A stretch of 64,000 nt of DNA, taken from assembly GCF_024753565.1 (NCBI RefSeq), contig NZ_JANTPT010000001.1:1753336-1817335 (forward strand). Direction: 5' to 3'. A model generated the notes under the pieces. That model saw only the letters and a list, made by a program, of their open reading frames with translations, had not been told where the DNA came from and ran no database searches. The stretch comes from Mechercharimyces sp. CAU 1602. GTDB taxonomy: Bacteria; Bacillota; Bacilli; Thermoactinomycetales; JANTPT01. The translations under genes and the position numbers were made by a program. Positions 30,153 to 36,886 of the stretch are shown here, in pieces (the stretch's first letter is position 1; each line of letters begins with the position of its first letter).

Positions 30153-31691
30153 ATGCAGCTAGAAAAATATAGGGACGCTTTGCCTATCCCACCGTTAGCC
30201 CGTCCCATCGGTACGTATAACCACTTACCTTACTACGAGATGAAGATGACGCAATTTCGCCAATCCCTGCACTCACAACTCCCTTCCACCATGGTATGGG
30301 GGTTTAACGGTCACTACCCTGGCCCCACTTTTGATGTTTGTTCTGGTCAACCCCTCTACGTCTCCTGGTGCAATCAACTACCTAGTAATCATCTACTTCC
30401 CATAGATCACTCAATCCAAGGGGCAAATTCTTGCCTTCCCGATGTACGTACCGTTACACACCTACATGGTGGTATAAATCCTACTTATTATGATGGGTAT
30501 CCTGAAGCCTGGTTTACACGAGATTTCCGAGAGCGTGGTCCATATTTTGTTTCCCCCCTATATTTTTATCGCAATGAACAGCCCTCCGCCACCCTCTGGT
30601 ACCATGACCATGCTCTCGCAATTACACGTCTCAACAATTATGCCGGCTTATCTGGATTATATATTATTCGTGATCCAGAAGAGCACCGATTTCACCTTCC
30701 GCAATCCCCTTATGAGATTCCACTCATCATCCAAGATCGCTCTTTTCAAGCGGATGGTTCATTATACTACCCTAATCAACCGGAATACACCCAGTCCGAT
30801 TGGCCTTATCCGTCTGTTGTTCGTTATTTTTTTGGCGATACCATGCTCGTAAACGGAAAAGTGTGGCCTTATTTATCAGTAGAACCACGTAAATATCGCT
30901 TTCGCATCCTCAATGGCTGTAATTCTCGCTTTTTACGCCTACAACTAAGCTCTAATCAGCTCTTCGTTCAAATCGGCACAGACCAAGGATTCTTACCTCA
31001 TCCGATCACCATTCGACAGCTCCTTCTCGGCCCCGCTGAAAGAGCCGACATCATTATTGATTTCCATACCCAAGCTGGAGAGAGCCTACTTCTCAAAAAC
31101 AACGCTCCCACCCCTTATCCCCATGGGAAACCAATAGAGGGAGACAGCACAGAACATGTGATGCAGTTTCGCGTCCAAGAAACCTTAGAAGAAGAGGACA
31201 TCAGCCAAATCCCCCCTTCACTCGTGCCCATAAAGAGACTTCAACCTACTCCAACCACACCCATACGACTTCTGTCCCTTGACGAGAGCAAAGACCACTA
31301 CGGGCGCCCACTTATGCTTCTTCACCACGAGCGCTGGAATGACCCTGTTTCCATATGTCCCCAACTTGGAACCCAAGAGGTGTGGAACCTTATCAACACA
31401 ACAGAGTTATCTCACCCTATTCACCTTCATCTAGTCAAATTTCTCATTCTTTGTCGTCGTTCCTTCGATGTTGAGCGTTATCAAGCGACAGGGCGCATTC
31501 ATTTCACACAACAATCACGCCCTCCGTCTCCTTCGGAGGCAGGATGGAAAGATACAGTCATATCTCCCCCAGGAGAGGTGACTAGCATTATCTCTTGCTT
31601 CAGCCCTTATACCGGTAGATATGTTTGGCATTGTCATATGCTAGAGCATGAGGATTACGAGATGATGCGCCCTTTCCTTGTCATTAGATAA
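30153..31691 (+). CDS. cotA: CotA-like multicopper oxidase (spore coat laccase)
   Basis: At 512 residues it has nearly the length of B. subtilis CotA (513) and no signal peptide, as CotA lacks one. All four copper motifs are present: THLHGG (His103, His105), WYHDHA (His151, His153), HPIHLHLV (His421, His424, His426) and HCHMLEHEDYEMM (His493, Cys494, His495, His499, axial Met504 or Met505). It should oxidise phenolics and bilirubin-like compounds and make coat pigment. AGAGGTGAG lies 6 bases before the ATG. Confidence 0.93.
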   Translation: MQLEKYRDALPIPPLARPIGTYNHLPYYEMKMTQFRQSLHSQLPSTMVWGFNGHYPGPTFDVCSGQPLYVSWCNQLPSNHLLPIDHSIQGANSCLPDVRTVTHLHGGINPTYYDGYPEAWFTRDFRERGPYFVSPLYFYRNEQPSATLWYHDHALAITRLNNYAGLSGLYIIRDPEEHRFHLPQSPYEIPLIIQDRSFQADGSLYYPNQPEYTQSDWPYPSVVRYFFGDTMLVNGKVWPYLSVEPRKYRFRILNGCNSRFLRLQLSSNQLFVQIGTDQGFLPHPITIRQLLLGPAERADIIIDFHTQAGESLLLKNNAPTPYPHGKPIEGDSTEHVMQFRVQETLEEEDISQIPPSLVPIKRLQPTPTTPIRLLSLDESKDHYGRPLMLLHHERWNDPVSICPQLGTQEVWNLINTTELSHPIHLHLVKFLILCRRSFDVERYQATGRIHFTQQSRPPSPSEAGWKDTVISPPGEVTSIISCFSPYTGRYVWHCHMLEHEDYEMMRPFLVIR

Positions 31692-33311: not shown

Positions 33312-34520
33312 CTACTTCGCCTCTACTTTATACATCTCCTCTTCTTGCTTTACGCTCTTAGCAGTGGACATCCGAATATAATAAAGTAGCACGCCGATAA
33401 GCAAAACCAATGAGCACCCCATAAACATGGCAGTATATCCTGTAAACTTTGCTAACACTCCTAATAGATAGGAACCCGAAGCAATGCCCACATCGGCCAC
33501 AATCATATAAGTAGCGGTAGCCGCACCCCTACGTTCGGGCGAGATCTCACGATACACTAATGCTGTCAAGCACGGTTGTACCGCACCAAAGCCAACACCG
33601 AAGAAAACAGCCGCCAATGCGATCCATAATAGATTATCCGCCCAACTTAACAGCACAATCCCCACAATGGAAAAGAGAAACCCAGGATAAACCACAACAC
33701 TAAATCCACGTTTATCTGCTAACTTTCCTGCAAAAGGACGTACAAACATCATGGCAGTCGCATAAATTCCGAAAAACAAACCCGCAGCCTCTACCAACCC
33801 AACTTTACTCACATGTAATGGCAAAAAAGAGACTAGCCCACCATATACAAAGAAAAGTATACCTGCGATTACTGCTGTCGGAATCACACTTTTCTCTATA
33901 ATTTGTTTCCACTGAAACCGCTTAGGCTCAGTTTTAACACTACTTTCTACTTTATTCACCTCAATCCAGCCGGCAAAAATAATACTCAGTAATGCTATTA
34001 CCGAACAAACAGAAAACAACACCTGATAACTCCATACTCCCATCACCCACAAACCGAAGAATGGACCTATAGCAAGCGCAACACTAACAAAGCTATGTAT
34101 AATTCCAAGCCCTTCTGCCCTTCGACTTTCTGGGATAATATCTGCCGCGATCGTACCCGACGCTGTTGTCGAGAGCCCAAAACCAAAGCCATGAAATAAT
34201 CGTAACAACAATAGCATAAATAACCCAACTACACCGAGATAACAAAGGGTCGCTAATAAAAATAAAATCCTCCCAAGAAGAAAAACCTTCTTACGATCCC
34301 AACGATCTAACCATACCCCTGCTAGAGGGCGCGAAATAAGCTGCGCAGTAGTAAATAGCGCGATAATCAAACCAACTTGTGCTTCTGTTCCGCTTAACTC
34401 TTCCACCACGAAGACAGGTAACGTAGGAAGTAGCATATAAAAACTAGCAAACATGAGAAAGTTACTAAGGGAAAGTATTACAAAGTTTTTCGTCCACAAC
34501 GCTTGTCCTTGTTTACCCAC
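33312..34520 (-). CDS. MFS transporter
   Basis: A 12-segment major facilitator of about 402 residues, with the motif-A segment RPLAGVWLDRWDRKKVFLLG between TM2 and TM3 and the repeat RPFAGKLADKRGFS between TM8 and TM9. It resembles arabinose-efflux-type exporters (AraJ-like). The GTG at 34520 is preferred because GGAGG lies 7 bases upstream; the longer frame to 34559 includes that SD. The 3' end is 5 bases from the converging deacetylase gene. The gene diverges from the micropeptide unit. Confidence 0.88.
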   Translation of the reverse strand: MGKQGQALWTKNFVILSLSNFLMFASFYMLLPTLPVFVVEELSGTEAQVGLIIALFTTAQLISRPLAGVWLDRWDRKKVFLLGRILFLLATLCYLGVVGLFMLLLLRLFHGFGFGLSTTASGTIAADIIPESRRAEGLGIIHSFVSVALAIGPFFGLWVMGVWSYQVLFSVCSVIALLSIIFAGWIEVNKVESSVKTEPKRFQWKQIIEKSVIPTAVIAGILFFVYGGLVSFLPLHVSKVGLVEAAGLFFGIYATAMMFVRPFAGKLADKRGFSVVVYPGFLFSIVGIVLLSWADNLLWIALAAVFFGVGFGAVQPCLTALVYREISPERRGAATATYMIVADVGIASGSYLLGVLAKFTGYTAMFMGCSLVLLIGVLLYYIRMSTAKSVKQEEEMYKVEAK

Positions 34521-34660
34521 TTCACATCCTCCTTCATTCCTATTAAAGTGACCATACACACCCTATCACCTTTATTTTACCACATCAAAAGTGTGAATAA
34601 GTAATTTTTTTATTCATTTTCTATTTTTAAGATGATTGGTATAATTTATTAAAAAAATAA

Positions 34661-34688
34661 TTGAAAATTTCTAAACTTAGTGTATAAT
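34661..34688 (+). promoter_or_regulatory. Strong promoter of the micropeptide unit
   Basis: TTGAAA (34661-34666) and TATAAT (34683-34688) with a 16-base spacer and a TG just before the -10. The transcript would start near 34695 and end at the hairpin at 34798-34827, about 135 bases. Confidence 0.75.
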
Positions 34689-34720
34689 AAAGTCAGTATT
34701 ATAGAAAGGAGGCATGCCAC

Positions 34721-34774
34721 ATGAAATTCGAAAGCAAAAACGTAAAATCCTTGTCCGCATTGTTCCCTGCTTAA
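34721..34774 (+). CDS. 17-residue micropeptide MKFESKNVKSLSALFPA
   Basis: This is a complete 18-codon reading frame with AAAGGAGG placed 8 bases before the ATG, a strong promoter and its own terminator. It has a polar, lysine-rich N-terminal half and a hydrophobic C-terminal SALFPA. There is no signal peptide. A second frame (ATG 34714, 22 residues, basic then hydrophobic) overlaps it, but its ATG is only 1 base from the SD. It precedes a TPR protein whose own promoter is not obvious. It may be a regulatory or signalling peptide, a RiPP-like precursor, a leader peptide, or the accidental reading frame of a small RNA. Confidence 0.5.
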   Translation: MKFESKNVKSLSALFPA

Positions 34775-34797
34775 TCTAAATTTTTTAATCATCTCAA

Positions 34798-34832
34798 AAA
34801 AGTGAATCCCCATGGGGATTCACTTTTCATTC
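34798..34832 (+). terminator. Terminator between micropeptide and TPR gene
   Basis: A 13-bp stem (34798-34810 with 34815-34827) closed by CATG, ending in CTTTTCATT. It lies 23 bases after the micropeptide stop and 60 bases before the TPR gene, so it could act as an attenuator. Confidence 0.75.
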
Positions 34833-34887
34833 ATAAAGAGAAACTAGGCTCATTTGAATAACAATACTCTTATAGAGAGGTGAAACC

Positions 34888-36144
34888 ATGCAATCATCTT
34901 TTTTATCAGCTATCCTGCACCTAAAAGAGGAAACTAATGATACGAGTATTTGGTGCAAAAATATTTGCCGCGCGCTCCCAGAGTATAACTTTTCTTTTGA
35001 CTTTACACGGGTACCTTATCATCTAAATCAAGTAATGGAGCCAACCACGCTCTTTGAAGTTGCTCAAGTCGCCAATCTATCATTGGAACAAGTTAGTCGG
35101 TTGGAATATCCTTTAGATGGCCCAATTGAAACCCTCCAAAAAAATTGGGAGAACCGCTCTCACTTCTCCCCTTTAGAACAGCTCAACATTGCTTTCCATC
35201 TCACTGCAATCTCCCGCTTTGAACAAGCATGGAGTATACTTACAAGCATGGATCGCTATCAACTAACCCCTTGCGCACAATTATATTTCTACTTACTCAC
35301 CTTTGTCATTAAGAACAGACTAGGTGTTATCGCTGTTGATGAAGAGTTCACATCCATCAAACACATCATCACAGAAAACACAATTCCAGCAAGCATTCAA
35401 CTTAATATGTCCTCACAAGCGATTGTCTGGTATATTAAGCAAAAAAGCGTAAAATCATCTTTATATCAATGGTTTGTACAGTGTGGATTGCAAGCAAAAG
35501 AAAAATTGAGTCACAGCGTCGACTTTCAAGATTACATTTCGCTCTCCACCTTTCATCGGGCCTATGCCATGATTCCAGCTGAAGAGAAAAAAGTAGAAGA
35601 GACAAGAGAAATCATGAAACTAGCTTTGCACTATGCTATGATCGCCACTCCCCGCACTCCCTTAGAAGAAGTAAAACGAGCCGATGCGATGAAAACAGCC
35701 TACGAATCAGAAGTGAAAGAGCACCTCTATCTATCCCGTCAATTTTCCCTCGCCGAACAAGCGGGACGTAATTTGATTGAGCTAGATCCACACTGGAGCA
35801 TATCGTATCAAGAATTAGCTGAAGTATATAGCCACTTCAAGCGCTTCGATGAAGCATTAGACATGTACCATAAAGCAGCTACGATTGGACTCCCTCGACT
35901 CACATTCTCCCATTTTATGAGTGGCTATACACTTTCACAACTACAGCGTGACGATGAGGCTATTGCAGCCTATCAAAAAACATTAGACCTAGATCCAGAA
36001 AATATATCAGCCGGAGTAAACGCCCTTCAATTAGCCCGAAAAACGAACCACCCAGATTCTAGTAAATTAGAACTATTACTGCAAAAGTGGGATGAGGAAG
36101 GGATTTTAACAGATGCACACCGGTCATTTTTAGCACGTGTATGA
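34888..36144 (+). CDS. TPR protein with helical N-terminal domain
   Basis: The 418-residue soluble protein is all-helical by appearance. The C-terminal part (about residues 295-385) has clear TPR units: WSISYQELAEVYSHFKRFDE, then LDMYHKAATIGLPR, then SGYTLSQLQRDDEAIAAYQK with the canonical LDLDPEN. Residues 1-90 form a separate domain, and 90-290 are weaker helical repeats. Length and architecture recall Rap/NprR-type peptide receptors, but no DNA-binding or phosphatase signature is visible, so function is unassigned. SD GAGAGGTGAAACC. Confidence 0.8.
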   Translation: MQSSFLSAILHLKEETNDTSIWCKNICRALPEYNFSFDFTRVPYHLNQVMEPTTLFEVAQVANLSLEQVSRLEYPLDGPIETLQKNWENRSHFSPLEQLNIAFHLTAISRFEQAWSILTSMDRYQLTPCAQLYFYLLTFVIKNRLGVIAVDEEFTSIKHIITENTIPASIQLNMSSQAIVWYIKQKSVKSSLYQWFVQCGLQAKEKLSHSVDFQDYISLSTFHRAYAMIPAEEKKVEETREIMKLALHYAMIATPRTPLEEVKRADAMKTAYESEVKEHLYLSRQFSLAEQAGRNLIELDPHWSISYQELAEVYSHFKRFDEALDMYHKAATIGLPRLTFSHFMSGYTLSQLQRDDEAIAAYQKTLDLDPENISAGVNALQLARKTNHPDSSKLELLLQKWDEEGILTDAHRSFLARV

Positions 36145-36189
36145 ATAAAGAGAGCACCGGCATTTCCAGCCGATGCTCTCTTTATTCAT
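36141..36189. terminator. Bidirectional terminator after the TPR gene
   Basis: A 16-bp stem (36141-36156 with 36174-36189) with an inner CCGGC/GCCG extension overlaps the stop of the TPR gene. It also serves the converging terC gene. Confidence 0.85.
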
Positions 36190-36196
36190 ACTCACA

Positions 36197-36886
36197 CTAA
36201 ATTACTTCCCTCTTTCCTTTCTCCCCCTCTTCAGCATTTTTGTTCTTCCACCAACCAAGCAATAATACCCCTACCACTATCGCTACGATCACAATCCATT
36301 GCATCCATGGATTTTGGTTGAAGAATGGTTGCACAAACCCTTCTCCTACCATCATCTTAGCGGCTGTAAAAGCAAGAACCGCTGCTCCAAAGTATATAAT
36401 CATTGGATAGCGTTCCATTAAGCGAAGAATAATGGCACTGCCCCAAATCATAATGGGTACACTGATCAGTAGCCCCAAAATAACCAGTACATAATCCCCA
36501 TGCGCAGCACCTGCAATCGCAATCACGTTATCCAGTCCCATCACTGCATCCGCAATCACTATCGTACGGATGGCAGCAAATAAATTGTTGCCCGCTTCAA
36601 TATCATGCTCTCCATCGTCTACCAACAGTTTGTATGAGATCCATACCAGCAGAAGTCCACCCACAAGCAGCAAACCCGGGATTTTCAACAACCAGACAAC
36701 CGCTAATGTAGCCAGGATGCGAATCCCAATCGCACCTACGGTTCCCCAGACAATCGCTTTTTTCTGTTGCTCTTTCGGAAGCCTTCTGGCAGCGAGTCCA
36801 ATTACAATCGCGTTATCCCCTGCTAAAAGTAGATCGATAATAATAATTGTAATTAATGCTCCGATAAATTCTGAACCCAGTTCCAA
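36197..36886 (-). CDS. TerC-family membrane protein (probable manganese exporter)
   Basis: The 229-residue integral membrane protein is of the TerC/YjbE/YkoY group. Family acids in membrane segments are visible: DLLLAGDNAIVIGLAARRLP (about residues 18-37) and ADAVMGLDNVIAIAGAAHG (about 112-130). Members of this group export Mn2+ and load exported metalloproteins. The leader carries a yybP-ykoY manganese riboswitch, which fits a role in manganese relief. The ATG at 36886 is only weakly served by an SD (GGAGTCGAGATCC). The C-terminus is charged. Confidence 0.93.
   Translation of the reverse strand: MELGSEFIGALITIIIIDLLLAGDNAIVIGLAARRLPKEQQKKAIVWGTVGAIGIRILATLAVVWLLKIPGLLLVGGLLLVWISYKLLVDDGEHDIEAGNNLFAAIRTIVIADAVMGLDNVIAIAGAAHGDYVLVILGLLISVPIMIWGSAIILRLMERYPMIIYFGAAVLAFTAAKMMVGEGFVQPFFNQNPWMQWIVIVAIVVGVLLLGWWKNKNAEEGEKGKREVI

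Follow-up and report, generated by a model that had tools for sequence, protein, structure and literature searches.

A 17-codon gene and the gene of a TPR protein recur as a pair in a few unrelated bacteria, which suggests that the TPR protein binds the peptide, for maturation or sensing. We describe the pair from the window, a stretch of 64,000 nucleotides of Mechercharimyces sp. CAU 1602, where the first-pass annotation had proposed a peptide-receptor pair. As genetics, the peptide-TPR pairing is well supported by sequence comparison; the pair is rare, spans two phyla and lies on plasmids in two of the species. The reading we favour, without putting it beyond an even chance, is that of a precursor or carrier peptide with a TPR binding partner serving a small exported product, in preference to a regulator formed by receptor and ligand.

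All parts of the locus named at the outset were found, namely the promoter-like site, Shine-Dalgarno sequence, 17-aa ORF, hairpin and TPR gene (Table 1). The promoter-like site is the best plus-strand match within positions 34500-36250, but the two strands together had 11 such sites where shuffled sequences averaged 4.4, so that single matches mean little. The hairpin has two perfect 15-nt arms (dG -18.1 kcal/mol, z -4.4). It had been described as a terminator, and while the structure is present, a simple consensus terminator scan did not call it; we read its short U-run as probably belonging to the stem. A fold as stable occurs at 28 of 205 stops of small ORFs in its 10-kb region, its own included, and the same comparison in the relatives gave 5/265 stops in Macrococcus, 6/295 in Rhizobium and 10/214 in Marininema. 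Given the missing call and the unexceptional energy in the window, transcription termination at this hairpin is likely rather than proven. No plus-strand promoter-like site was found in the interval from hairpin to TPR gene, in agreement with the earlier remark that this gene has no obvious promoter of its own, although a weak site (9/12) lies inside the peptide gene at 34721-34748. For the TPR gene of the window, read-through past the hairpin is a likely route, in line with the earlier suggestion. By eye, the short peptide has no signal sequence, as previously stated, and no transmembrane stretch. Rfam at gathering scores returned only two tRNAs in the window.

Table 1. Features of the peptide-TPR locus in the window and of the peptide array in the distant relative G181 (positions are those of the window unless a locus is named)
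Feature	Position	Strand	Remarks
MFS transporter, divergent, possible exporter	33312..34559	-	linked to the pair in window and Marininema; not exclusive
Promoter-like TTGAAA-16-TATAAT	34661..34688	+	5' of micropeptide gene; 11/12 consensus positions
Shine-Dalgarno AAAGGAGG	34705..34712	+	8 nt 5' of ATG
Micropeptide gene MKFESKNVKSLSALFPA	34721..34774	+	17 aa and stop; related peptides in three further species
Hairpin, probable partial terminator between peptide and TPR genes	34798..34827	+	two 15-nt arms; not called by the terminator scan
TPR protein, 418 aa, proposed micropeptide binder	34888..36144	+	starts 60 bases past the hairpin
G181 peptide array, four identical tandem 30-aa copies METNNIVATEQELNAEFGIVMGMDEGQYCD	L040 4328-4828	-	each copy with its own Shine-Dalgarno

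Whether the peptide is conserved next to the TPR gene had been proposed as a check, and a relative of the peptide indeed adjoins the close TPR homologues in 6/6 opened loci and 4/4 species. In Marininema halotolerans (G009), the peptide MIKFSSENMVILTAAFPA is encoded between the TPR gene and a divergent MFS gene; its promoter hexamers and their spacing are those of the window, its Shine-Dalgarno site is strong, and a hairpin is present. The Rhizobium rhizogenes plasmids pC5.7d and pC6.5c encode MVEFTSTKMEILSSLFII 3' of the TPR and VOC genes, and on the Macrococcus armenti plasmids pJEK46-1 and pJEK12-1 the gene for MKSFSTGKVRAALFPSPTT comes first, followed by an unknown 241-aa gene and then by the TPR gene. 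The four homologous peptides are 17-19 aa long, and the peptide gene has its own Shine-Dalgarno and a hairpin past the stop codon in all four species and a promoter-like site ahead of it in three of them. The frame is conserved together with the hairpin that follows it, rather than the RNA structure alone, and in the genomes and records searched every clear instance of the peptide came with the TPR gene; both results leave the proposed pairing standing. Identity to the window's peptide is 59% in Marininema, 41% in Rhizobium and 40% in Macrococcus, compared with 44%, 32% and 27% (TPR part) for the TPR protein, and by this measure the peptide is more conserved than its partner. Residues M1, F3 and F15 (numbered as in the window) are the same in all four, and the hydrophobic positions appear to be spaced like one face of a helix.

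Small ORFs (12-30 aa) were scored for likeness to the window peptide, or to the window and Marininema peptides. The homologue ranked first of 1145 in a 45-kb Rhizobium stretch, of 768 in a 32.6-kb Macrococcus stretch and of 334 in an 11-kb Marininema stretch, and its score was reached by 0, 9 and 0 of 2000 shuffled peptides, respectively. A profile of the four peptides (A5) was searched over 398 sampled genomes of the class and matched 40 at E < 0.5. Only Marininema (2.7e-8) and the window's genome (1.1e-6) fell below 0.005, and both bear this TPR gene. Eighteen weaker matches were opened as loci: 13 overlie an ORF of >100 aa in another frame, one lies within its own 199-aa frame and L053, L055, L056 and L062 do neither, and none of the 18 has a Shine-Dalgarno-led start giving <34 aa. 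A DNA pattern (Shine-Dalgarno-led ORF ending in FPA) occurred in 4/42 genomes of the order, two of the four being unlike sequences by reading. A chance ORF is ruled out by the profile, the ranks and shuffles, and the inspection of the weaker loci.

The order of short ORF, hairpin and gene resembles that of a transcription attenuator, in which the ORF would be a leader peptide and ribosome stalling would control the downstream gene. Codon use points slightly the same way, as codons at identical amino acids are themselves identical at 7/9 positions in the peptide versus 73/173 in the TPR gene (P 0.034, a weak excess). We nevertheless regard attenuation as very improbable. No alternative partner for the 5' arm of the hairpin is listed within the transcript (arms of at least 8 nt), the next downstream gene varies (TPR gene, unknown 241-aa gene or cytidylyltransferase), and the amino acids are conserved across phyla.

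The description of the 418-residue product as a TPR protein holds: TPR_2, TPR_1 and TPR_8 are the only Pfam families above cut-off, with matches within residues 280-380, and the AlphaFold model is all-helical (pLDDT 69.9, two-row alignment). Confidence is below 50 for residues 1-55 and fair to good from about residue 170. The N-terminal helical domain comprises about 95 residues and carries an HTH-like motif, L-x-E-[VA]-x4-[GN]-[LI]-[SD] (window residues 55-65), which visual inspection shows in each of the four homologues; helices 52-61 and 66-70 are predicted there at a pLDDT of about 72, and a sub-threshold Sigma70_r4 match (E 0.028) was obtained with the window protein only. These features would suit a regulator whose N-terminal domain binds DNA and whose ligand, intracellular or re-imported, is the micropeptide, with the peptide promoter, the divergent MFS gene and the Rhizobium and Macrococcus clusters under its control. 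However, the N-domain model reaches only 53.5 overall, and domain and family searches gave no HTH_3, Rap, NprR or other RRNPP row, which is not exclusion. The PDB structure matches listed for the model are generic TPR proteins, none of them RRNPP, and are silent on binding; those listed from a viral structure library are generic repeat proteins. In both Macrococcus armenti records (L043 7992-9245; L095) an in-frame stop parts the N-domain from the TPR part, and this may mean either that they are made there as separate chains or that the gene is defective.

RRNPPA receptors recognise their peptides through a C-terminal TPR domain, and leaderless communication peptides (LCPs) are encoded near their receptors and near biosynthetic clusters; the tested LCPs have 8-9 aa, and longer precursor forms have been suggested (PMC10518010). 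The window pair resembles RopB and its LCP in having a leaderless short ORF near a TPR protein, with biosynthetic genes often close by, and differs in the length of the peptide, 17-19 aa against 8-9 aa, a difference that the suggested longer precursors qualify (PMC10518010). It differs further from RRNPP and LCP systems in that no receptor family row was found, the HTH-like motif is only putative, and the cassette also occurs in an alphaproteobacterium. Peptide signals tend to diverge fast, and a peptide more conserved than its protein is the reverse of this. Of the peptide-receptor proposal, the conserved peptide beside the TPR gene stood; the switching of the TPR protein by the peptide is a putative role. 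Three points keep regulation a real possibility, though on the improbable side: the HTH-like motif, a window pair with no enzymes close by, and the longer precursors suggested for LCPs.

Among the 42 genomes of the order, a full-length homologue of the TPR protein beyond the window's own occurs only in Marininema, and three other genomes gave weak matches, in repeats. A first protein scan of genome contigs found no relatives, a two-row TPR profile found only Marininema, and tblastn against 72,556 plasmid records gave four records from two species, all of which were opened. The TPR profile A3 matched 1/398 genomes in the phylum sample, the own genome, and 0/108 in the family of G129 (inferred to be Staphylococcaceae), the latter search having no positive control. 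The whole window protein matched 88/398 class genomes at E 0.001, and profile A8, built with G000, G009 and G181, matched 17/398 at 1e-8; matches beyond these three genomes were not counted since, among the matches listed, they hit TPR repeats. A phage origin was rejected, as viral contigs and phage records yielded no relatives, and so was a defence system, for which PADLOC gave a generic TPR model only.

The window site and an 11.2-kb Marininema stretch have the divergent MFS gene, the peptide and the TPR gene in common and nothing else there, the only other matches being at 24-25% with ORFs at 51-55 kb of the window. The MFS subfamily is present in 18/42 genomes of the order (E 1e-60 or better, own included), and the closest copy, that of G008 (68% identical to Marininema's), has neither peptide nor TPR gene adjoining; its exporter status is consequently a guess, and the case for a dedicated MFS exporter is weakened. 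Nine neighbours at 30-40 kb of the window were tested, eight with Pfam hits and one without. No peptide-modifying family was recognised among them, no ThiF/MccB adenylyltransferase was found among the window neighbours, and no modifying enzyme is shared between the window and Marininema sites. A multicopper oxidase gene (30153-31691) lies 3 kb from the pair and is absent from the Marininema locus.

On the Rhizobium plasmids, the TPR gene is located between two VOC genes, and the peptide gene within a run of enzyme genes, ahead of cytidylyltransferase, PhyH and LicD and opposite a phosphonate pathway with PEP mutase. On the Macrococcus plasmids, VOC, MATE exporter and beta-propeller genes come after the pair. 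The smaller Rhizobium VOC is 58% identical to that of Macrococcus, and at E 1e-20 this VOC occurs in the same four plasmid records as the TPR protein. It was discarded as a part of the window cassette, having only distant matches elsewhere in the genomes, of which the G000 one holds a stop. Other observations concern the plasmids themselves. The phosphonate cluster of pC5.7d in which the micropeptide is embedded (L042/L045) has PEP mutase, decarboxylase, transaminase, cytidylyltransferase and LicD genes, and also a TetM-like GTPase and an MFS gene. In Macrococcus, a ThiF gene is located about 6 kb from the pair, past a recombinase gene; on pJEK46-1 (L043 1-4101), ThiF, arginase, isochorismatase and M50-peptidase-like genes follow one another, a 25-aa ORF (1108-1185) separating ThiF from arginase, and this is possibly a second peptide-product cluster on the plasmid.

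Exporter genes nearby and the plasmid location in two species, together with a promoter-like site and hairpin specific to the peptide, may also be expected of a peptide that is bioactive without modification, as a bacteriocin, a toxin or a small-protein regulator; the TPR protein would then be its chaperone or target or confer immunity to it. This is unlikely, as the peptide is short and without recognisable signal or membrane segments, the conservation of its N-terminal half across phyla would fit recognition rather than a diversifying toxin, and the TPR protein matches no known toxin or immunity family.

Distant TPR homologues occur in G181, Kitasatospora purpeofusca and two Streptomyces plasmids. 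At nominal database size, BLAST E values against the window protein are 3.7e-13 for G181, where the similarity leaves out the N-terminal domain, and 3e-12 for Streptomyces, and the Kitasatospora protein matches that of Marininema at 3e-05. The gene order in G181 is HExxH hydroxylase, four 30-aa peptides, hairpin, TPR and MFS; the hydroxylase is an aKG-HExxH peptide beta-hydroxylase (TIGR04267, E 9e-26), and the cluster is likely a RiPP cluster. No ORF like the window peptide was found in the G181 stretch, the highest score of its 261 small ORFs being 9.5. In Kitasatospora, the order is 28-aa ORF, hairpin, TPR gene, two further genes and MFS. In Streptomyces NBC_00015, a 22-aa candidate, chosen after the fact among four small ORFs with a Shine-Dalgarno-like motif, is followed some 85 nt on by a hairpin, before the TPR gene; the candidate of NBC_00723 is the same, and the opened Streptomyces stretches contain no annotated exporter. 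Across close and distant homologues, each of the 10 opened loci pairs the TPR gene with a short ORF, two of them tentatively, and a hairpin was seen in 7/7 loci checked for one. Several members of the wider family are located in clusters that look biosynthetic.

In microcin C, a terminator after the very short mccA gives an excess of peptide mRNA, mccB comes next, and MccC is the exporter (PMC6495379). The pair is similar in its very short peptide gene, the hairpin after it and an exporter gene (PMC6495379), but has no adjoining ThiF-type MccB, the TPR protein being in the enzyme's place, and its peptide has 17-19 codons against seven in microcin C. Precursor, TPR protein and transporter also occur together in the RiPP clusters of ammosamide (AmmC2) and biphenomycin (BipC/PbsE) (PMC12424672, PMC12257519, PMC12707348), and the biphenomycin clusters combine an HExxH enzyme and a TPR-annotated arginase with precursor and MFS genes (PMC12707348). 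This likeness is one of described gene content: BipC/PbsE is an arginase, AmmC2 is uncharacterised, BipA has 41 aa, and the window pair has no known modifying enzyme nearby. In the available parts of the open-licence literature, no description of this peptide-TPR pair was recognised.

A peptide-product system is favoured on account of the multi-copy peptides, hydroxylase and transporters of the wider family and the conservation of the peptide. It would be a compact cassette in which a dedicated TPR protein binds a short peptide made by the ribosome. By analogy with microcin C, the hairpin may hold the peptide mRNA in excess over the TPR mRNA. The micropeptide would be the precursor or carrier, gripped along the concave face of the TPR protein, which may act as escort or maturation scaffold, and the product would leave via a nearby exporter, MFS in the window and MATE in Macrococcus. 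Richer clusters may add enzymes, such as VOC and phosphonate genes in Rhizobium or the aKG-HExxH hydroxylase in the distant relative, whereas the window peptide could stay bare or be modified by the TPR protein itself or by enzymes encoded elsewhere. Against the product system, there is no known modifying enzyme near the window pair and the MFS gene is not exclusive to it, and the HTH-like motif of the N-domain would fit a regulator better. The window has a conserved short peptide gene, as a RiPP cluster does, with a putative precursor role, and no modifying enzyme; it has the C-terminal TPR domain of RRNPP proteins, and where these carry an N-terminal XRE-type HTH or a response-regulator-binding domain, the window protein shows the HTH-like motif with its sub-threshold match and low-confidence model. 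The locus is not assigned to RiPP, RRNPP, LCP or microcin C systems. A new class is a speculative and doubtful extension: the TPR protein would by itself recognise a ribosomal peptide of 17-30 residues and either mature it or escort it for export, plasmids would have carried the system among Bacillota, Pseudomonadota and Actinomycetota, and richer clusters would hold optional tailoring enzymes.

Genes of 17 codons escape annotation, as the Rhizobium and Macrococcus plasmid tables (PLSDB, incomplete) list no feature covering the peptide, and a TPR protein that marks such genes offers a way to find them. Should the pair make a product, the cassette would be a very small one for a peptide product; should it be a receptor with its ligand, it would be a peptide switch common to Gram-positive and Gram-negative bacteria.
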